From assembly GCF_013425765.1 (NCBI RefSeq), contig NZ_JACCJZ010000017.1:62001-126000 (forward strand): DNA of 64,000 nt, written 5' to 3'. The position numbers and the translations under genes are program-made. The notes beneath the pieces are model-generated. The model saw only the letters and a program-made list of their open reading frames with translations. It did no database searches and was not told the origin of the DNA. Origin of the DNA: Luteimonas deserti (lineage in GTDB: Bacteria; Pseudomonadota; Gammaproteobacteria; Xanthomonadales; Xanthomonadaceae). Shown piece by piece: positions 5,069 to 55,160 of this stretch (position 1 is its first letter; the number at the start of each line of letters is the position of its first letter).

Positions 5069-6139
5069 ATGCGATTGTTCAAATGCTCGCAGTGCGAGCA
5101 GGTCCTGTATTTCGAGAACACCGGTTGCCTGCGTTGCGGCAGCCGGTTGGGATTCTTCGCCGACACGCTGACGCTGGAAGCGCTGGAGCCCGATACCGAC
5201 GTCGGCGCCTGGCGTTCGGCGGAGCGGCCTGGTGGTCATGTGCGCTTCTGCGCCAATGCCGAGCATTCGGCCTGCAACTGGGTGCTCCCGGCGGAAGAAC
5301 GCGAGCAGTACTGCCGCGCCTGTCGCCACAACCGCACCATTCCCGATCTCGGGATTCCGGAGCGGCTGGAGGGTTGGCGCCGCGTCGAAGCGGCCAAGCG
5401 GCGCCTGTTCTATTCGCTTCTGCGCCTGCGACTGCCGACACCGTCCCCGAACAGCGGCGATCCGCAACCGCTGTCGTTCGACTTCCTGGCCGAGACCCGG
5501 CGCGGCCCCAAGGTGCTGACGGGCCATGACAACGGCCACATCACGATCGCGCTGAGCGAAGCGGACGATCTCGCCCGCGAGCGCCTGCGCATCCAGCTCG
5601 GCGAGCCCTATCGCACCCTGCTCGGGCATTTCCGCCACGAGATCGGCCACTACTACTGGGACCGTCTCGTGCGGGACGCCGGCGAGGACGAACTCGCGCG
5701 GTGCCGCGCGCTCTTCGGCGACGACCGCCTCGATTACGGCGAAGCGCTCAAGCGCCATTACGCGCAAGGCGCGCCGGACGACTGGCAGGCCAGCCACGTC
5801 AGCAGTTACGCGACGATGCACGCGTGGGAGGACTGGGCCGAGACCTGGGCCCACTACCTGCACATGGTGGACACGCTCGAAATGGCCTCGGCCTTCGGCA
5901 TCCGGATCGCGCCCGACATCGCCGACGACAGCTCGATGGATGCCCAGATCGCGTTCGACCCGATCCATGTCTCGCGTATACAGCGTCTCGTCGATGCCTG
6001 GCTGCCGCTGACCTATGCATTGAACAGCCTCAACCGGGCCATGGGGCAGCCGGACGTGTATCCCTTCGTGATCCCGCCGGCGGTGATCGCCAAGATGGAT
6101 TACATCCATGCGCTGATCCGGCGGCAGGGGCTGCGTTGA
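5069..6139 (+). CDS. Putative zinc-ribbon metallopeptidase (COG4307-type)
   Basis: The 356-residue protein has two parts. Residues 1-90 carry paired zinc-binding cysteines (C6-C9, C20-C23, and C61, C69, C82, C85), that is, a rubredoxin-like ribbon followed by a second knuckle. Residues 170-340 are a helical domain with the gluzincin motif HEIGH (190-194) and, downstream, the acidic helix WEDWAETWAHYLHM that may supply the third metal ligand. This matches the uncharacterised putative zinc-binding peptidase family. It has no signal peptide, so it is predicted cytosolic. Nine bases separate it from the transglutaminase gene. The substrate is unknown; joint peptide cleavage with that gene is an inference. 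Confidence 0.75.
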   Translation: MRLFKCSQCEQVLYFENTGCLRCGSRLGFFADTLTLEALEPDTDVGAWRSAERPGGHVRFCANAEHSACNWVLPAEEREQYCRACRHNRTIPDLGIPERLEGWRRVEAAKRRLFYSLLRLRLPTPSPNSGDPQPLSFDFLAETRRGPKVLTGHDNGHITIALSEADDLARERLRIQLGEPYRTLLGHFRHEIGHYYWDRLVRDAGEDELARCRALFGDDRLDYGEALKRHYAQGAPDDWQASHVSSYATMHAWEDWAETWAHYLHMVDTLEMASAFGIRIAPDIADDSSMDAQIAFDPIHVSRIQRLVDAWLPLTYALNSLNRAMGQPDVYPFVIPPAVIAKMDYIHALIRRQGLR

Positions 6140-6264
6140 GCCCGGCGGCCCAAGCTGATCCGCGCGATCTTTCCGGGTCTCGTGTCGGCGGGGGAGGGTT
6201 GCTGCCAATTGCCGCCCACGCGCGTTACACTGCCGGCCCGCCGCGGCGATCGTCGCGCGGGGCA

Positions 6265-6292
6265 TTCCGTTCCGGCGCGAATCGGATAGAAT
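6265..6292 (+). promoter_or_regulatory. Candidate sigma-70 promoter of tRNA-His
   Basis: TAGAAT (6287-6292) is a good -10 box; TTCCGT at 6265-6270, 16 bp upstream, is a weak -35. The -10 lies about 47 bp before the tRNA. Confidence 0.4.
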
Positions 6293-6339
6293 GCGCGGCT
6301 GCCGCGGGCCCCAGGCCCGAGGGCGGATCAAGCTTTATG

Positions 6340-6416
6340 GTGGCTGTAGCTCAGTTGGTTAGAGTACTGGATTGTGATTCCAGTGGTCGGGGGTTCGAGT
6401 CCCCTCAGCCACCCCA
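6340..6416 (+). tRNA. tRNA-His (GUG)
   Basis: Acceptor GTGGCTG/CAGCCAC, encoded CCA (6414-6416), anticodon loop TTGTGAT in a CTGGA/TCCAG stem, T-loop TTCGAGT. G6339 can serve as the extra G at position -1 that is typical of tRNA-His, facing discriminator C6413. Confidence 0.95.
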
Positions 6417-6442
6417 TGTTCCCGGGCGGGCACCGCGAGGTG

Positions 6443-6471
6443 TTGCCCAAGCGCGCAGAGTTGCGTAAACT
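6443..6471 (+). promoter_or_regulatory. Candidate sigma-70 promoter of tRNA-Lys
   Basis: TTGCCC (6443-6448), exactly 17 bp, then TAAACT (6466-6471), ending 16 bp before the tRNA 5' end. This suggests that tRNA-Lys has its own promoter although it lies only 71 bp after tRNA-His. Confidence 0.5.
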
Positions 6472-6487
6472 GCGCGCCCGCTTCATC

Positions 6488-6563
6488 GGGCCGTTAGCTC
6501 AGTTGGTAGAGCAGTTGACTCTTAATCAATAGGTCCAAGGTTCGAATCCTTGACGGCCCACCA
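6488..6563 (+). tRNA. tRNA-Lys (CUU)
   Basis: Acceptor GGGCCGT/ACGGCCC, encoded CCA (6561-6563), anticodon stem GTTGA/TCAAT with loop CTCTTAA. The anticodon is therefore CUU, reading AAG, the dominant lysine codon in this GC-rich window. Confidence 0.93.
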
Positions 6564-6574
6564 GTTGCACGAAG

Positions 6575-6600
6575 ACGCCCGGCACTGCCGGGCGTTCTTC
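6575..6600 (+). terminator. Rho-independent terminator after tRNA-Lys
   Basis: Nine-bp stem (6575-6583 with 6587-6595) with a three-base ACT loop, followed by TCTTC, 11 bp after the tRNA. Confidence 0.75.
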
Positions 6601-6608
6601 GTTCCGGC

Positions 6609-6638
6609 TTGGGCGTCGGTGCACGGATCGACTACGAT
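6609..6638 (+). promoter_or_regulatory. Candidate promoter of tRNA-Leu
   Basis: TTGGGC (6609-6614), 18 bp, TACGAT (6633-6638), 29 bp before the tRNA. With a terminator just upstream, an own promoter is needed here. Confidence 0.4.
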
Positions 6639-6667
6639 GCGCCCGCCGGCAATGCGGTCGGCACGTT

Positions 6668-6752
6668 GCGAAAGTGGCGGAATTGGTAGACGCCCTGGTT
6701 TTAGGTACCAGTGCCGCAAGGCGTGCGGGTTCGAGTCCCGCCTTTCGCACCA
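6668..6752 (+). tRNA. tRNA-Leu (UAG)
   Basis: Class II tRNA of 85 nt with acceptor GCGAAAG/CTTTCGC, encoded CCA (6750-6752), and a long variable arm (TGCCGCAAGGCGT). The anticodon stem CTGGT/ACCAG holds loop TTTAGGT, giving anticodon UAG. T-loop TTCGAGT. Confidence 0.95.
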
Positions 6753-7176
6753 CTCGGACACGCCCTCGCGCCCGGCCCGTTCCGTGCTGCCATGAACTGC
6801 AGGTCCTCGATCCTGCGGAACAGGGTTAGACCTGCGGTGCGTACGGCATTCGAAGACCGGTGTGGCCGTGCGCCGGGCGGCTCTGACGGGCACGCGGCCC
6901 CGCGATCCAGCGCGGTGGCGTCGTCCGTAGAGGCCGTCCTGCTCGGCGCGTGACGCGACCGCGCCTGGGCGCCTGTCTCGGATCGCCGGGCGATCGAGAT
7001 GCGCCGGCCGCCTCTTCGGGTCTCCCCGCCGCCGCGGCGGTGGCGGGAAGACCGCGAATCCGCCAAACTATCCCGTTCCGTCGCCCCGGGCGCCTACAGG
7101 TGCGCTGTCGGCACGGGGTCACCTTCCCAAACAAGTCAGACGTCGTGCGGCGGAAGTCGCAAGCGCAGGAGTGGAT
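6753..7176. other. Intergenic region before tig, no gene seen
   Basis: About 420 bp without a convincing frame or RNA fold. The right end must hold the tig promoter but no hexamer pair stands out; AGGAG at 7167-7171 is the tig ribosome-binding site. Confidence 0.4.
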
Positions 7177-8484
7177 ATGCAAGTTTCGGTCGAATCGCTG
7201 GGCAACCTGGAACGCAAGATGACGTTCCGTGTGCCATCCGAACGCCTCGAGACCCAGGTCGGCGGCCGCCTGCGCGAGATCGCGCGGACCACCCGGCTCA
7301 AGGGCTTCCGTCCGGGCAAGGTGCCGGCGAAGGTCGTCGAGCAGCGCTTCGGTGAGCAGGTGCGCGCGGAAGTCCTCGACGGGCTGCTGCGCGAGGGATT
7401 CGACCAGGCGATCCGCGAGAACGCGCTGCGCTTGGCCGGCGCGCCCCAGATCACGCCGGAAGGCGAGGCGGGTGAGGGCGAGCTCGCATTCACCGCGACC
7501 TTCGAGGTGGTGCCGGACTTCGGCGACATCGAGCTCGAGAAGCTCGAGGTCGTGCGTCACACCGCCGAAGTGGCCGAGGACGACATCGACCGCATGATCG
7601 AGAACCTGCGCCTGCAGCGTCGCAGCTGGAGCGCGGTGACGCGAGGCGCGCAGACCGGCGATGCCGTGGACGTGGAAACCTGGTCGCAGATCGGCGACGA
7701 GCGCCTGCCGGCCGAAGGTGCCGAGCGCGGTGTCACGGTACTGGGCTCCGGCGCGATGTACCCGCAGATCGAGGAGGCCCTGGTGGGCCTGGCGAAGGGC
7801 GACGAGAAAGTCGTCGAGGTCACCTTCCCGGACGACTGGCGTGTGCCGCAGCTGGCCGGCAAGCAGGCCAGCGTCCACGTCAAGATCGAACAGGTCTCCG
7901 AGCAGCAGCTTCCGGATGTGGACGGGGCGTTCATCCGCAGCTTCGGCGTCAAGAGCGGCGAGCTGGACCAGTTCCGCACCGAGATCCGCAGCAACCTCGA
8001 GCGCGAGCTCAAGGGAGCGCTGATGAACCGTCTGCGGCGCGAGGTCGGCGAGCAGCTGGTCGCGGCGTTCGCGCACATCGAGCTGCCGCCGAAACTGGTG
8101 GAAGCCGAGGCCCGTTCGCTGTTGCGCCAGACCGTCGAGCAGGCCCGCCGCAACGGCCAGAATCCGAACGTGGCCGACGATGCGTACATCGGTTTCATAG
8201 AGCCCGCGCGCAAGCGCGTGCTGGTCGGTCTGCTGGTCGGCGAGGTGGCGCGTCGCCACGATCTGAAGCTCGATCCCAAGCGCGTGAACGAAACCATGCG
8301 GCTGATCGCCTCGACCTACGAGGAGCCGCAGCAGGTCATTGAGATGTACCGCAACGACCCCCAGCTGATGTCGGGTCTGCAGAATCGTGTGATGGAGGAG
8401 CAGGTGATCGACTGGATCGCCGAGCGCGCCAAGCACACCGAGCAGGCGCTCAGCTTCCAGGACGCGATCGGCTCCCAGGCCTGA
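7177..8484 (+). CDS. tig: Trigger factor, ribosome-associated chaperone and prolyl isomerase
   Basis: The 435-residue protein has the usual length and domain order: ribosome-binding domain (1-115) with the signature GFRPGKVP at residues 43-50, an FKBP-type PPIase domain (about 155-240), and the helical chaperone domain to the end. It binds ribosomal protein L23 at the exit tunnel and shields nascent chains. ATG 7177 is preferred over the in-frame GTG 7171, because AGGAG (7167-7171) is then at proper spacing and the family begins MQVSVE. It is followed by clpP and clpX, the conserved tig-clpP-clpX order, so client handover and degradation functions are grouped. Confidence 0.97.
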
Positions 8485-49161: not shown

Positions 49162-49569
49162 TCAGCCGTGCGCGGCCCCAGGTAGCCTCGCGGTCACCTT
49201 GATCTCGAAATCGAATCCCGACAGCCAGGTCACGCCGACCACGGTGGCGGTCGGAAACGGCGCCTGGCCCCAGTAGTCCGGCACCACCGTGCTCCACACC
49301 TGCTCGAAGCGCGTGGCCGGGTCGACCATGAACACGGTCACGTCGACCACATCGTCGAAGCTGCAACCCGCTGCAGCGAGGACCGCATCGAGGTTGGCGA
49401 ACGCGAGGCGCACCTGCTGTTCGAGATCGGGTTCGGGCGAACCGTCCTCCCGGCTGCCCACCTGGCCGGAGACGAACAGAAAGCCGCCGGCGCGCACCGC
49501 GGGCGAATAGCGATGGCGCTCGTACAGCGCGTGGCGGCCGGCGGGGAATACGGCGTCGCGTGCGGTCAT
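49162..49569 (-). CDS. RidA family protein
   Basis: The 135-residue protein is of the YjgF/YER057c/UK114 (Rid) family, trimeric with clefts between subunits. Archetypal RidA hydrolyses reactive enamine/imine intermediates. Visible are FLFVSGQVG, EQQVRLAFANLDAVLAAAG, VVDVTVFMVDPA and a C-terminal VTWLSGFDFEIKVTARL. The Arg of the RidA catalytic site (normally in a C-terminal R-x-x-V-x-V/ E pattern) is not clearly there, so it may belong to a Rid subfamily other than RidA proper. AGGAG precedes its ATG (49569). It is divergent from a LysR gene, sharing a palindromic operator. Confidence 0.88.
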   Translation of the reverse strand: MTARDAVFPAGRHALYERHRYSPAVRAGGFLFVSGQVGSREDGSPEPDLEQQVRLAFANLDAVLAAAGCSFDDVVDVTVFMVDPATRFEQVWSTVVPDYWGQAPFPTATVVGVTWLSGFDFEIKVTARLPGAAHG

Positions 49570-49656
49570 GACGATCTCCTGCGGGGTCGGGGTGACCCTG
49601 GGGCGCCAGTCTGTGCCGGGCGCGGCCCCGGATAAATCCGCGGCATCGACCAGGTC

Positions 49657-49675
49657 TGTTCGTAGAATCCGAACA
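49657..49675. promoter_or_regulatory. LysR-type operator candidate
   Basis: TGTTCG (49657-49662), seven bases, CGAACA (49670-49675): a perfect 6-bp inverted repeat containing a T-N11-A core (T49660 and A49672), the known LysR-type box. It lies in the 127-bp gap between the RidA and LysR genes, with TAGAAT (49663-49668) inside it as a possible -10 of the LysR gene. Confidence 0.7.
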
Positions 49676-49696
49676 ATCGTCGCCTGCGGAGTGCCG

Positions 49697-50620
49697 ATGG
49701 ACCGATTCGATGCAATGCAGGCCTTCGCCCGTGTGGTGGAGGCAGGCAGCTTCACGCGCGCGGCCGAGACCCTGCACGTGAGCCGCGCCACAGTGACCCA
49801 GCTGGTGCAGCAACTGGAGGCGCGCCTGCGGGTGAAGCTGCTCCATCGCACCACCCGCCAGGTGAGGGTGACCGAGGACGGCGCTGCGTACTACGCGCGG
49901 GTACTGCGCCTGCTGGGGGACATGGAGGATGCCGAGACCAGCCTCTCGGGTGCGTCGGCCACGCCGCGCGGGCGACTGCGGGTGGACGTGCCGGCCCCGT
50001 TCGCACGCACGATCCTGGTGCCGGCGCTGCCTGCATTCCATGCGCGTTTCCCGGAGATCCGCCTCGATCTCGGGGTCAGTGACCGACGGGTGGACCTGAT
50101 CGGCGACAACGTGGACTGTGTGGTCCGCGGCGGCACCATCACCGATCTGTCTCTGGTCGCGCGCCACGTCGGCGATCTTGCGCTGGGTGTCTACGCCGCG
50201 CCGGCCTACCTGCAGCGGATGGGCACACCGGCCCATCCGCGTGAACTCGACGACAGTCATCACCGCATCGTCGGGTTCCTGTGGGGCCGCAGTGGACGCA
50301 CGGTGAGCTTTCCGATGCATCGCGGCGACGAGCAGGTGCACGCGCACGGCCGGTACGTGGTGGCGCTGGACGATGGCAATGCCTATCTCGCAGCGGGTCT
50401 CGCCGGTCTCGGTGTGCTGTGGCTGCCGGACTACATGGCGGCCGCCCATGTCGCGGCCGACGAGCTGGTGCCGCTGTTCGAGGACTGGCGGATGGCGCCG
50501 ATGCCGCTGTCGGTGGCGTATCCGCCCAGCCGCCACGTCAGCGCGAAGCTCCGCGCGTTCATCGACTGGATCGCCGAGCTGGTGGCGGTGCACGCACCGG
50601 TGATGCCGCCCCGGCCTTGA
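49697..50620 (+). CDS. LysR-family transcriptional regulator
   Basis: The 307-residue protein has an N-terminal winged helix (MQAFARVVEAGSFTRAAETLHVSRATVTQLVQQLEARLRVKLLHRTTRQVRVTEDG region) and a periplasmic-binding-like effector domain (90-295). It is closest in style to the group that often regulates a neighbouring oxidoreductase or Rid gene. It is transcribed divergently from the RidA-family gene and likely controls it and itself through the palindrome between them. ATG 49697 starts three codons before the usual FDAMQAF. Confidence 0.92.
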   Translation: MDRFDAMQAFARVVEAGSFTRAAETLHVSRATVTQLVQQLEARLRVKLLHRTTRQVRVTEDGAAYYARVLRLLGDMEDAETSLSGASATPRGRLRVDVPAPFARTILVPALPAFHARFPEIRLDLGVSDRRVDLIGDNVDCVVRGGTITDLSLVARHVGDLALGVYAAPAYLQRMGTPAHPRELDDSHHRIVGFLWGRSGRTVSFPMHRGDEQVHAHGRYVVALDDGNAYLAAGLAGLGVLWLPDYMAAAHVAADELVPLFEDWRMAPMPLSVAYPPSRHVSAKLRAFIDWIAELVAVHAPVMPPRP

Positions 50621-50683
50621 GCGCACGCGTGCGGGTCGCGCGGCGCGGGTGCATGATGCAGGCCCGCCTCCGGACCCGCGCCC

Positions 50684-52372
50684 ATGGCACTCGCCGACGA
50701 CCGCCGTCACCAGATGTTTCCGGTGCTCGATGCTGCCCAGGTGGCCAGTGCATGCCGCTTCGCCAGCGGACCGCCGCGCCGCTTCGCCGCCGGCGAGGTG
50801 ATGTTCGACGTCGGCGACTGCGATGCCCCGGTGTGGCTGGTGCTCGATGGCGCGATCGACGTCACGCGTCGCGACGGGCTCGGACACGAAAAGCCGATCA
50901 CCCGTCAGGGCATCGGCCAGTTCACCGGCGAGGTGAGCCAGCTGGCCGGGCGTGCCTCGCTGGCCGCGGGGCACGCGTCGGCGGACGGCTGCACCGCGTT
51001 GCCGATCGATGCGGCGCATCTGCGCGCGCTGGTGGTGGGCGCCGCGGAACTCGGCGAGATCGTGATGCGCGCGCTGATCCTGCGCCGCGTGGGGCTGATC
51101 GAGGGCGACGCATCCGGCTCGGTCCTGGTCGGTACGCCGGGGGATGCGCAGGTGACCGGCCTGCAGGGCTTCCTCACCCGCAACGGGTATCCGAACACGC
51201 TGGTGGACGCGGACAGCGACGAAGGCCGCGAGATCGTCGAACGTCTCGGCATCCTGGCGGCCGACCTGCCGCTGATGGTCTGCCCCAATGGCGCCGTGCT
51301 GAAGCGACCGGGCACCGCGGAAGCGGCCGCCTGCCTCGGCATGACGCCCGAGCTCGATCCCGAGGCCGTGCACGATGTGGCCATCGTGGGCGCCGGGCCG
51401 GCCGGACTCGCGGCGGCCGTGTATGCCGCCTCCGAGGGGCTGTCGGTGCTGGTGCTGGACCAGCGGGCGATCGGCGGACAGGCCGGCGCGTCGGCGCGGA
51501 TCGAGAACTACCTCGGGTTTCCGACCGGCATCTCGGGCCAGGCGCTGGCCGGCCGTGCCTACAACCAGGCGCTCAAGTTCGGCGCCGAGCTGGCGATCCC
51601 GCTCGAAGTCGAACGCCTGGTCTGCGCCGGCGACGGGGACCGCGCGCCGCATGCCCTGCAGCTCACCTCGGGTCAACGCGTGCGTGCACGCACCGTCGTG
51701 ATCGCCTCCGGCGCACGCTACCGGCGACCGGATATCGAGAACCTGCGGCTCTTCGAGGGGGCCGGCGTCTCGTACTGGGTGTCGCCGATCGAGGCGCGCC
51801 TGTGCGCGGGCGAAGAGGTCGCCCTGGTCGGTGGCGGCAATTCGGCCGGGCAGGCGGTGGTGTTCCTGGCGCCGAAGGTGAAGACCCTGCATCTGGTGGT
51901 GCGCGGCGCGGGGCTGGAGGCCTCGATGTCGCGTTATCTGATCGACCGCATCGCCGCGCTGCCGAACGTCGTGCTGCACACGCGCACCGAGCTGGTGGCG
52001 CTGGAGGGCGACGTCGAGCGGGGCCTGGTCGGCGGGCGCTACCGAAATCGCGACACCGGCGAGGAGCATCCCTGCGATCTGCGGCACGTGTTCCTGTTCG
52101 TCGGCGCCGATCCCAATACCGGCTGGCTCCAGGACTGCGTCGCCCTCGATGGCGGTGGCTTCGTGACCACGGGCGCCGACGGTGCCGGGCCCGGGCGCAG
52201 CACGTCGCTCGAGACCAGTCGGCCGGGCCTATTCGCGATCGGCGACGTGCGTGCGGGTTCGGTGAAGCGCGTGGCCGCGGCGGTGGGCGAGGGCGCCGCG
52301 GTGGTCGCGCAGATCCATGCACATCTGGCCGCGGACGCCGCGACTGCGCAGGCGGTCGAGGCGACCCCCTGA
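50684..52372 (+). CDS. Cyclic-nucleotide-binding domain / thioredoxin-reductase-like fusion
   Basis: The 562-residue, three-part protein has residues 1-130 as a cyclic-nucleotide-binding (cNMP) beta-roll, 140-220 as a thioredoxin/glutaredoxin-like module (VDADSDEGREIVERLGI, LPLMVCPNGAVLKRP) without CxxC, and 230-555 as a thioredoxin-reductase-like flavoprotein. FAD motif is GAGPAG (236-241) and the NADPH motif is LVGGGNSAG. The reductase redox motif, normally C-x-x-C after GVSY, reads WVSP (365-368), so classical thioredoxin reduction is impossible. LFAIGDVRAG near the end binds FAD. ATG 50684 is near the start of the cNMP fold. Its partner and signal are unknown. Confidence 0.85.
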   Translation: MALADDRRHQMFPVLDAAQVASACRFASGPPRRFAAGEVMFDVGDCDAPVWLVLDGAIDVTRRDGLGHEKPITRQGIGQFTGEVSQLAGRASLAAGHASADGCTALPIDAAHLRALVVGAAELGEIVMRALILRRVGLIEGDASGSVLVGTPGDAQVTGLQGFLTRNGYPNTLVDADSDEGREIVERLGILAADLPLMVCPNGAVLKRPGTAEAAACLGMTPELDPEAVHDVAIVGAGPAGLAAAVYAASEGLSVLVLDQRAIGGQAGASARIENYLGFPTGISGQALAGRAYNQALKFGAELAIPLEVERLVCAGDGDRAPHALQLTSGQRVRARTVVIASGARYRRPDIENLRLFEGAGVSYWVSPIEARLCAGEEVALVGGGNSAGQAVVFLAPKVKTLHLVVRGAGLEASMSRYLIDRIAALPNVVLHTRTELVALEGDVERGLVGGRYRNRDTGEEHPCDLRHVFLFVGADPNTGWLQDCVALDGGGFVTTGADGAGPGRSTSLETSRPGLFAIGDVRAGSVKRVAAAVGEGAAVVAQIHAHLAADAATAQAVEATP

Positions 52373-52696
52373 GCCCTCGACGCGGGGGCTCCGGCGTCTC
52401 GAACGGCAGCGCCGGACACGCGGCGAGCGCGCGCAGCCGTGTCCACGTCGCATGCGGATCCAGGCGCGAGTCTCCGGCGCCGGCATGCCAGAGATTCGGT
52501 AGCGCCCGATGTCACCGCCCTTGTGCCGCGCCGGCGCGACGGTGTCTACGCCGTGAGGTGCGGATCCGACGCCGTGCGAACCACCCAGTTGTCCGGGCAC
52601 GTATGGCGCGCGTGTGAGCCGCGGGACCGGCGCTGCACGCGCCGACCTTCACGAGCCCGCAGGTAGCGTCGGGTCTTCCACAGCGAGGACACCCCG
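52373..52696. other. Intergenic region, no gene seen
   Basis: About 320 bp after the flavoprotein gene without a plausible frame. The right end presumably has the promoter of the small acidic ORF; no clear hexamers are found. Confidence 0.4.
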
Positions 52697-52864
52697 ATGA
52701 GCCAGAAGAACACGACTGATCCGCGCGACGACGCGCAGTCGCCACCTCCCGCAGCCGATCCCGAGGCCGGCATCGAGCGCGAGGTCGGCGACCTGGGCGA
52801 TCCGGACGCCGAGGACGACGATGCGCTGCCCGGCCGCGCCGGTGGCGGACTTGCCGGCGCGTGA
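52697..52864 (+). CDS. Small acidic hypothetical protein (55 aa)
   Basis: ATG 52697 to TGA 52862-52864. The protein MSQKNTTDPRDDAQ...PEAGIEREVGDLGDP is rich in Asp/Glu/Pro and ends in GRAGGGLAGA, with no hydrophobic core: likely disordered. Codon third positions are nearly all G or C as in real genes here, and GAGGAC (52685-52690) gives a ribosome site. I know no function. Proteins of this style are common in xanthomonads, but I cannot name a family. Confidence 0.55.
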   Translation: MSQKNTTDPRDDAQSPPPAADPEAGIEREVGDLGDPDAEDDDALPGRAGGGLAGA

Positions 52865-53102
52865 CCGCCTCGTGCCCGATGCGGCGGCGCGACGTCGCGT
52901 GCAACCGGATGCCGTCCGGTTCGCGGACCCTTGACGCCGAGCCGGCGACCCTCGTCCGCACGCCCTGGAACGGACATTCCGCGATGCGTCCAGCTTGCAC
53001 GACACGAACGCCCGGCCGCGCTGACGGCACGCCCGGTCATCGCGGGCGCCCTGCACGCGTACCCCGAGCGCCCGAGGGATGCGCTCCGCGGAGCCGGCCC
53101 TG

Positions 53103-53870
53103 ATGGCCCGGCTTCGACACAGCGACTGGCCGGACCGCGTCTGGATCGTCCGCCACGGCCAGAGTGCAGGGAATGTGGCCCGCGACGAGGCCGAACTCGC
53201 CAGCACCCACCTGATCGACATCGCGACGCGCGATGCGGACACGCCGCTGTCGGAGCTCGGCCACGAGCAATCCCGCGCGCTCGCCGCGTGGTTCGCCGAT
53301 CTCCCCGAGGCCCAGCGGCCGAACGTCCTGTTGACCTCGCCGTTCCTGCGTGCCCAGCAGACCGTCCACGCGGTGGCGGATGCGCTGGGCATCGACCGCA
53401 GCGACATCGGACTCGACGAGCGTCTGCGCGAGAAGGAGTTCGGTGTGCTCGACCGCTACACGGTCGCCGGAATCAAAGTGCACTTCCCCGATCTGGCAGA
53501 ACAACGGGCCTCGGTGGGCAAGTTCTACTTCCGGCCGCCCGGCGGCGAGAGCTGGTGCGACGTGATCCTGCGGCTGCGCAGCGTGACCGAGGTCCTGCGC
53601 CGCGACCACGTGGGCGACCGCGTGCTCATCGTGGCCCACCAGGTGATCGTCAACTGCTTCAGGTATCTCCTCGAATGCATGGACGAGGCGCAGATCCTGG
53701 CGATCGACCGCGAGGCGGACGTGCCGAACTGTTCGATCACCGAGTATGCGATCGACCGCGCCGATCCCGATGGACGTTTCCAGCTGCAGGTGGCCAACCT
53801 GGCATTGCCCCTTCTCGAAGCGGGCGCTGCGGTGACGGAGGCGTCGGACGCGCCCGGTGGCCCGCGGTGA
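53103..53870 (+). CDS. Histidine phosphatase superfamily protein
   Basis: The roughly 255-residue protein is of the phosphoglycerate mutase-like branch. The RHG motif is IVRHGQSAGNVARDEA, the second His is in VLIVAHQVIVN, and the acid/base Glu is probably in LREKEFGVLDR. The start is ATG 53103 (MARLRHSDWP) with GGAG at 53090-53093; an in-frame ATG at 53079 is the alternative. The stop overlaps the GTG start of the NnrD gene (GTGA), so the two are coupled. The substrate is not predictable (phospho-sugar, nucleotide or protein). Confidence 0.85.
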   Translation: MARLRHSDWPDRVWIVRHGQSAGNVARDEAELASTHLIDIATRDADTPLSELGHEQSRALAAWFADLPEAQRPNVLLTSPFLRAQQTVHAVADALGIDRSDIGLDERLREKEFGVLDRYTVAGIKVHFPDLAEQRASVGKFYFRPPGGESWCDVILRLRSVTEVLRRDHVGDRVLIVAHQVIVNCFRYLLECMDEAQILAIDREADVPNCSITEYAIDRADPDGRFQLQVANLALPLLEAGAAVTEASDAPGGPR

Positions 53871-54851: not shown

Positions 54852-55160
54852 GTGCACCTGATCCAGTTCTTCCTGCCGCTCCGCGACAACGATGGCGACG
54901 CGTTCCCGCGTGCCATGTTCGACACGGTGCGAAGCGAGCTCACCGAGCGCTTCGGCGGCGTCACCGCGTTCGTGCGCACCCCGGCGGTTGGCGCCTGGGA
55001 AGACGACACGGGCGACGTGCAGCGTGACGAAGTCATTCTGGTCGAAGTGATGGTGCCGACGCTCGAGCGCGACTGGTGGCGCGACTACCGTGAAACGCTG
55101 CGTACACGCTTCCGACAGGAGGCGCTGCTGGTGCGGGCGACGGCGGTGGACATGCTGTAG
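54852..55160 (+). CDS. Conserved-looking hypothetical protein (102 aa)
   Basis: A GTG start at 54852 with GGAG (54842-54845) gives MHLIQFFLPLRDNDG. The protein is a mixed alpha/beta single domain with acidic patches, AMFDTVRSELTERFGGVTAFVRTPAVGAWEDD and a C-terminal RDWWRDYRETLRTRFRQEALLVRATAV. It has no signal peptide or membrane segment. The aromatic/charged pattern and GC-rich third codon positions support a real gene. I recognise no named family. It is 88 bp after nnrD on the same strand. Confidence 0.6.
   Translation: MHLIQFFLPLRDNDGDAFPRAMFDTVRSELTERFGGVTAFVRTPAVGAWEDDTGDVQRDEVILVEVMVPTLERDWWRDYRETLRTRFRQEALLVRATAVDML

Follow-up and report, generated by a model that had tools for sequence, protein, structure and literature searches.

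A single 562-residue protein of Luteimonas deserti joins a cyclic-nucleotide-binding (CNB) fold, a glutaredoxin fold and a thioredoxin reductase (TrxR) fold, the latter two devoid of a CxxC pair, and the loss of this pair from the TrxR part is, judging from the aligned homologues, the rule of its family, which is widespread and little described, and not an oddity of one gene. The protein is encoded by one ATG-started open reading frame in the window, i.e. the whole stretch of 64,000 nucleotides analysed here (Table 1). With confidence and doubt in about equal measure, it is best read as a signal-gated NAD(P)H–FAD protein that would hand on electrons, or else a redox signal, to some partner outside the chain. 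What is new is the family-wide loss of CxxC together with an invariant Glu and a near-invariant Cys, a CNB pocket lacking its Arg, the exchange of the CNB for a receiver domain in some relatives, and a linkage to genes for UBP-type zinc fingers (zf-UBP). The architecture label is already public, since plasmid records in RefSeq carry the name "cyclic nucleotide-binding domain-containing thioredoxin-disulfide reductase", an architecture alike by name. The disulfide reductase part of that label is contradicted by the missing CxxC, and the thioredoxin-disulfide reductase name in some public records thus refers to an activity of which the family is most likely incapable by the usual route. Among open-access papers, judged by title and the start of the abstract, none was found on this architecture or on zf-UBP beside the family; the term "UBP" does not appear in passages of PMC8945050 and PMC1779556, nor "cyclic nucleotide" in those of PMC8945050.

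Table 1. Features of the fusion gene and its upstream neighbours, in window coordinates.
Feature	Position	Strand	Evidence
CNB, CxxC-less glutaredoxin fold and CxxC-less TrxR-like flavoprotein, 562 residues	50684–52372	+	ORF, Pfam, structure model, dN/dS
CNB beta-roll, residues 1–140	50684–51103	+	PF00027, profile against PKG/PKA, model strands
Degenerate phosphate-binding cassette, residues 80–93 (FTGEVSQLAGRASL); Glu83 present, Arg at Glu+9/+10 missing	50921–50962	+	profile, residue counts
Glutaredoxin/NrdH-like fold without Cys pair, residues 144–218	51113–51337	+	separate fold, structure comparison, residue counts
TrxR-like FAD/NAD(P)H module, residues 228–560	51365–52363	+	PF07992; TRX_reduct 192.6 bits (below cut-off); VIA Z 32.8
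WVSP (365–368) in place of TrxR CxxC	51776–51787	+	sequence, alignments
Glu370 (invariant) and Cys374 (near-invariant), next helix	51791–51805	+	122/122 and 120/122
R407...SMSRY (414–418)	51902–51937	+	R407, S416 and Y418 122/122; alignment to TrxR
LysR-type regulator, directly upstream	49697–50620	+	orthologues near fusion gene in congeners
RidA/L-PSP gene, divergent	49162–49854	-	gene order in congeners; genus context, no role claimed

All three parts that the original prediction had read from the letters, a cNMP-binding roll, a CxxC-less thioredoxin-like module and a TrxR-type flavoprotein, were recovered. Pfam places cNMP_binding (PF00027) at residues 32–116 with 28.4 bits, against a gathering cut-off of 27.5, and Pyr_redox_2 (PF07992) at residues 230–537 with 90.8 bits. 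The top NCBIfam match is thioredoxin-disulfide reductase (TIGR01292), at a score far below its cut-off of 343.45 bits, and the AhpF equivalog score of 149 against a cut-off of 502.9 bits places the protein outside AhpF as well. The full-length AlphaFold2 model, generated from a 60-sequence input, has a pLDDT of 93.4 and a pTM of 0.92. Pfam, the model and structure comparison agree on a two-domain TrxR fold for FAD and NAD(P)H, and the cofactor motifs are present as had been claimed (GAGPAG, 236–241, and GGGNSA, 383–388); from the motifs and the model we infer that the fusion protein uses FAD and NAD(P)H.

The middle part gave no Pfam match. Modelled alone (pLDDT 90.4), it shows the beta-alpha-beta-alpha-beta-beta-alpha order of the glutaredoxin/NrdH fold, with a VIA Z of 11.0 to cGrx1 and 10.4 to NrdH. 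Foldseek by itself returned weak E-values (best 1.7e-3, none ≤ 0.001), its first rows listing the metallochaperone ArsD and then NrdH, glutaredoxin and Mrx1 among others. The CxxC or CxxS active site of glutaredoxin is missing: no Cys is found there in the window protein, and only 2 of the 60 alignment rows shown have one. Pro196 presumably lies near the cis-Pro place of the thioredoxin-like fold.

In the TrxR part, W365-V366-S367-P368 aligns where mycobacterial TrxRs carry their CxxC, as the original prediction had proposed, and adjoins helix 368–374 of the model; no CxxC occurs anywhere in the 562 residues. A survey of homologues carried this observation over to the family. None of 122 distinct full-length sequences (>400 residues, window copy counted), which were collected by similarity to the window protein and hence do not sample TrxR-like proteins at random, has a CxxC within residues 360–373. 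Left out of this set were the truncated L081 and L011, duplicate records (L097 = L031, L103 = L039) and L074, whose C-terminus is shifted; alignment A2 omits 21 of 81 rows, namely L081, L074 and 19 rows at least 80% identical to a retained row. A mutation or sequencing fault of one gene was rejected as the cause of the loss, given that the homologues also lack CxxC. The usual form of the site is Y-W-A-S-P-x-E-A-x-L-C, with W in 101 of the 122 sequences and G or A in the others. Invariant throughout are Glu370, R407, S416, Y418, R523, K528 and R529. The arginine motif HRRxxxR, which we take to be the TrxR motif for the NADPH 2'-phosphate, is replaced by VVRGAGLEASMSRY with R407 retained, and the stretch R407...SMSRY is presumably where TrxR has its 2'-phosphate arginines. 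Three further proteins of the same genome, an AhpF-like and a TrxB-like one (both named by resemblance) and a third, hold CPHC, CATC and CAIC, respectively, at the matching place, so the cell has other TrxR-fold proteins besides the fusion. The residues at the site indicate that the fusion protein is probably not a classical disulfide reductase, which agrees with the earlier view. With its naturally CxxC-less TrxRs, the family allows one to ask which acceptor the flavin reduces once the disulfide is absent.

Comparison with known systems places the fusion beside, and not within, the established groups. Low-Mr TrxR (TrxB; TIGR01292; PDB 5mh4, 1f6m) has the FAD/NAD(P)H fold in common with it, at about 25–33% identity and with Z up to 32.8, whereas the fusion is without CxxC, scores under the equivalog cut-off, is altered in the NADPH 2'-phosphate region and has two extra N-terminal domains. 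AhpF (TIGR03140; PDB 1hyu, 4o5q) also places a thioredoxin-fold module ahead of its TrxR module, but it has redox CxxC sites, two of them in the AhpF-like frame of the same genome, where the fusion has none, and the extra domain of the fusion is a CNB fold. The TrxR fold operates without CxxC in the TrxR-type ferredoxin/flavodoxin-NADP reductases (PDB 6gar, 3lzw). Their sequence match to the fusion is weaker than that of TrxR (best E 1e-15 versus 2e-37) and, unlike the fusion, they have no signal domain; the group is named in the abstracts of PMC10294844 and PMC11121358.

The predicted conformation of the TrxR part was compared with the two states of TrxR. The model is close to 5mh4 (titled FR; rmsd 1.8 Å, Z 32.8) and to 3cty, 3r9u and 1f6m (1.7–2.0 Å), the last being a thioredoxin complex at 2.0 Å, and far from 5mjk (titled FO; 7.1 Å) and from 1trb and others (~7 Å), with a few structures between. 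Since FR-state structures match better than FO-state structures, the model is in the NADPH-to-flavin (FR) arrangement. As predicted, this arrangement fits an enzyme that would no longer need the swing of a CxxC to the flavin; it may also reflect the modelling and not a lock, the prediction being of a single chain without cofactors.

In the working that we favour, NAD(P)H would reduce the FAD of a TrxR-type core predicted in the FR arrangement. Lacking a CxxC, the core has no disulfide relay of its own, so that electrons would pass straight to an external partner; either these electrons or a redox-dependent conformation would be delivered at the face that in a TrxR serves to dock thioredoxin. 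The glutaredoxin fold, itself CxxC-less, would act as a docking or coupling module and not as a thiol carrier, and the N-terminal domain, a CNB here and a receiver in some relatives, would set the activity on a signal. The prime candidate for the partner in many relatives, including three congeners, would be the zf-UBP protein encoded next door. In the genome of the window, which has no zf-UBP, either another partner would be used or the fusion would work alone.

The N-terminus was expected to fold as a cNMP roll, and CNB folds were indeed what it matched: PF00027 scores above its gathering threshold and the model contains the beta-roll. A profile of 23 N-termini (A3) ranked a Toxoplasma protein containing multiple CNB domains first (E 7.8e-44), followed by PKG chains from E 1.5e-29 and PKA RI-alpha at about 1e-22, all E-values being for whole chains that have several domains. 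The N-terminus alone, searched with phmmer, gave weak PDB matches (best E 2.6e-4). The fold and the pocket Glu are common to the family and to the CNB domains of PKA, PKG and CRP, position 83 being E in 113 and D in 5 of the 118 CNB-bearing sequences. The pocket Arg, on the other hand, is not. PKG has it at Glu+9 in ungapped stretches, where the family has mostly Ala or Ser; Arg was found at Glu+9 in none of the 118 sequences and at Glu+10 in one (L010), and the Glu and Arg cassette of a ligand-competent CNB is accordingly incomplete in the window protein. R or K at Glu+7, present in 97 of the 118, might stand in for it, to go by the alignment. Gating by cAMP or cGMP is doubtful, because the phosphate-contacting Arg is missing in 117/118 sequences and a receiver domain takes the place of the CNB in some relatives; the residue pattern suggests that the ligand of the CNB lineage is probably not canonical cAMP or cGMP. 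The gating by these nucleotides as originally put forward is thus not borne out, and the earlier interpretation as a whole is partly supported.

Four of the 122 sequences are without CNB. Of these, L154 is short, and L012, L153 and L155 carry a receiver domain (PF00072) where L156 and L157 have PF00027. In the tree, the receiver types adjoin CNB types of Nocardia and Deinococcus plasmids; the enclosing groups have supports of 90/95 and 97/97, and finer splits are weak. The family hence offers a case in which the same enzyme core is coupled to one or the other of two signal domains. Downstream of the receiver version in Streptomyces lie a kinase that has a CNB domain of its own and, after it, a zf-UBP gene. 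On the Streptomyces fungicidicus plasmid (L155, 3548–7031), this set of receiver TrxR-like gene, CNB-carrying histidine kinase and UBP zinc finger amounts to the parts of the fusion split into a phosphorelay. A related and somewhat improbable alternative is that the protein is purely a redox or NAD(P)H sensor, in which partners such as two-component proteins or zf-UBP would read the FAD redox state or the NAD(P)H occupancy, the CNB or receiver would integrate a second signal, and there would be no metabolic acceptor. The fused receiver domains and the lost disulfide relay are in keeping with this, as are genes annotated as response regulators, and one as a hybrid kinase, that adjoin the family member on several plasmids. 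However, the invariant residues of the NAD(P)H/FAD core are equally explained by an enzyme, and no two-component gene was found among the five neighbouring window ORFs scanned.

The strongest lead to a partner comes from gene neighbourhoods. The UBP-type zinc finger, here a small protein, is best known from eukaryotic ubiquitin readers; to our knowledge, bacteria generally lack ubiquitin and the role of such fingers there is unclear. When all ORFs of 80 named loci were clustered, with no family preselected, zf-UBP was the top neighbour cluster (18 of the 80 loci, 17 of these within 400 bp). Among 398 genomes drawn from the phylum, zf-UBP occurs in 15, of which 14 carry a family member as well (Fisher p 1e-13; 8/9 when counted by genus, p 7e-8), p values that are optimistic because of shared ancestry. 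The two genes lie within 460 bp of each other in 12 of the 14 pairs (on opposite strands in G382), at 5.3 kb in G365 and elsewhere in G393. The fifteenth genome, G431, is the exception: its zf-UBP lies at C1:1019715–1019912, and no homologue of the CNB–TrxR protein there is close (best E 2e-26). On plasmids, among the matches listed (60 of 86 zf-UBP records), 40 have a listed family-member position, and of these 40 pairs 32 are no more than 300 bp apart, 4 up to 3 kb and 4 far apart. Within the genus, 3 of 41 genomes (G001, G020 and G718) have zf-UBP, in each case about 90–100 bp downstream of an orthologue 86–87% identical to the fusion. The finger was not found in the window's own genome, and 31 of the 45 family carriers in the phylum draw lack it, so it cannot be obligatory as a partner. 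A zf-UBP remnant in the window was considered and rejected, as tblastn with two congeneric zf-UBP frames gave chance matches only (best E 0.49). Most aligned proteobacterial zf-UBP proteins encoded next to the fusion share a conserved C-terminal tail close to PIPRY/F, resembling PDQTPQRGPIPRY, that extends beyond the zinc-finger domain (e.g. L135, 4640–4945); it is missing in L090 and the three actinobacterial zf-UBP.

The family is a concrete candidate partner for bacterial UBP zinc fingers. A more far-reaching and rather improbable proposal is that both together constitute an undescribed bacterial redox-signalling module. In it, a CNB or receiver domain, responding in the Arg-less CNB lineage to some ligand that is not cAMP/cGMP, would gate the CxxC-less flavoprotein, whose direct partner would be a zinc finger with the fold that reads ubiquitin tails; the output would be the redox or zinc state of the finger, or its reading of peptide tails, in a stress response.

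The remaining cysteine counts against the favoured scheme of direct transfer to a partner, since Cys374 could still do thiol chemistry. It is conserved in 120 of the 122 sequences, and in L127 it forms a pair, C374-T-G-C377. CxxC is found elsewhere than at the TrxR place in three of the 122, L127 among them, in each case within the TrxR part. The expectation that no homologue has an alternative Cys pair restoring the site failed once among the 122, for L127, which (5947–7677) alone makes a new CxxC with Cys374 and is a natural test of a disulfide regained further along the helix. In addition, a CxxC-bearing thioredoxin is encoded beside the family member in Nocardia, and a Rhodococcus gene near the family member is, going by its annotation, presumably trxA; such adjoining thioredoxin genes fit a disulfide-linked role, and redoxin and DsbA genes lie near in Bosea. 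A monothiol or partner-completed disulfide reductase, with Cys374, perhaps together with a Cys of the partner, replacing the CxxC, is nevertheless unlikely. Cys374 comes some eight residues after the first position of the CxxC place, and it is replaced by V in L111 and by T in L157, both of which keep Glu370 and R407. No second Cys is conserved across the family (C200 in 86/122, C217 in 69/122, C314 in 89/122).

An NAD(P)H oxidase yielding H2O2 or superoxide under signal control, which is close to the view of the original prediction, appears very unlikely. Flavins that lack an internal disulfide are able to react with O2, and Dps-type genes are found near the family member on several plasmids; the gene linkage is, however, better fitted by a dedicated acceptor partner.

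Selection on the gene was estimated against three congeneric orthologues, giving overall dN/dS values of 0.133, 0.162 and 0.136 and values of 0.12–0.18 in each of the three domains. These low values indicate purifying selection, and thus that the loss of CxxC is not due to chance. A decaying gene was rejected on the same values, and a decaying pseudo-enzyme, to which the absence of both CxxC and the CNB Arg might point, is a next to negligible prospect, the constraint in all domains largely refuting decay and the losses being common across phyla while other residues are invariant.

Of the 398 genomes drawn from the phylum, 45 have a family member (E ≤ 1e-50), the match in one of them, G382, starting only at residue 135; of 274 genomes drawn from the class, 7 have one at E ≤ 1e-60. 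Acidobacteriota, Myxococcota and Nitrososphaerota are represented among the named loci. The distribution in the genus is patchy, 6 of 37 genomes, counting G000, giving strong matches, and the nearest clade of the tree mixes alphaproteobacteria with Lysobacteraceae and Rhodanobacteraceae, which together suggest horizontal transfer of the fusion gene. An anti-phage component was rejected, PADLOC giving only a weak flavin-motif match (E 0.0029).

At the locus itself, promoter and terminator scans of window positions 49400–53200 found nothing. The gene order FNT transporter–RidA–LysR–fusion is retained in three congeners, and the LysR orthologue lies at most about 90 bp from the fusion gene in two of the three and at 2.3 kb in the third (G001). 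A histidine phosphatase gene is situated 3' of the fusion gene in the window and likewise in G009, which is also without zf-UBP. Further downstream, positions 54852–55160 (+) of the window contain a 102-residue ORF without a Pfam match at E 0.001. On a Nocardia farcinica plasmid (L156, 1–6083), genes for a J-domain protein, CbpM, ClpB, thioredoxin, UBP zinc finger, CNB–TrxR and DUF1931 form a cluster that looks like a mobile proteostasis and redox stress island; the last four of these recur on a Rhodococcus plasmid (L160, 1045–3919).
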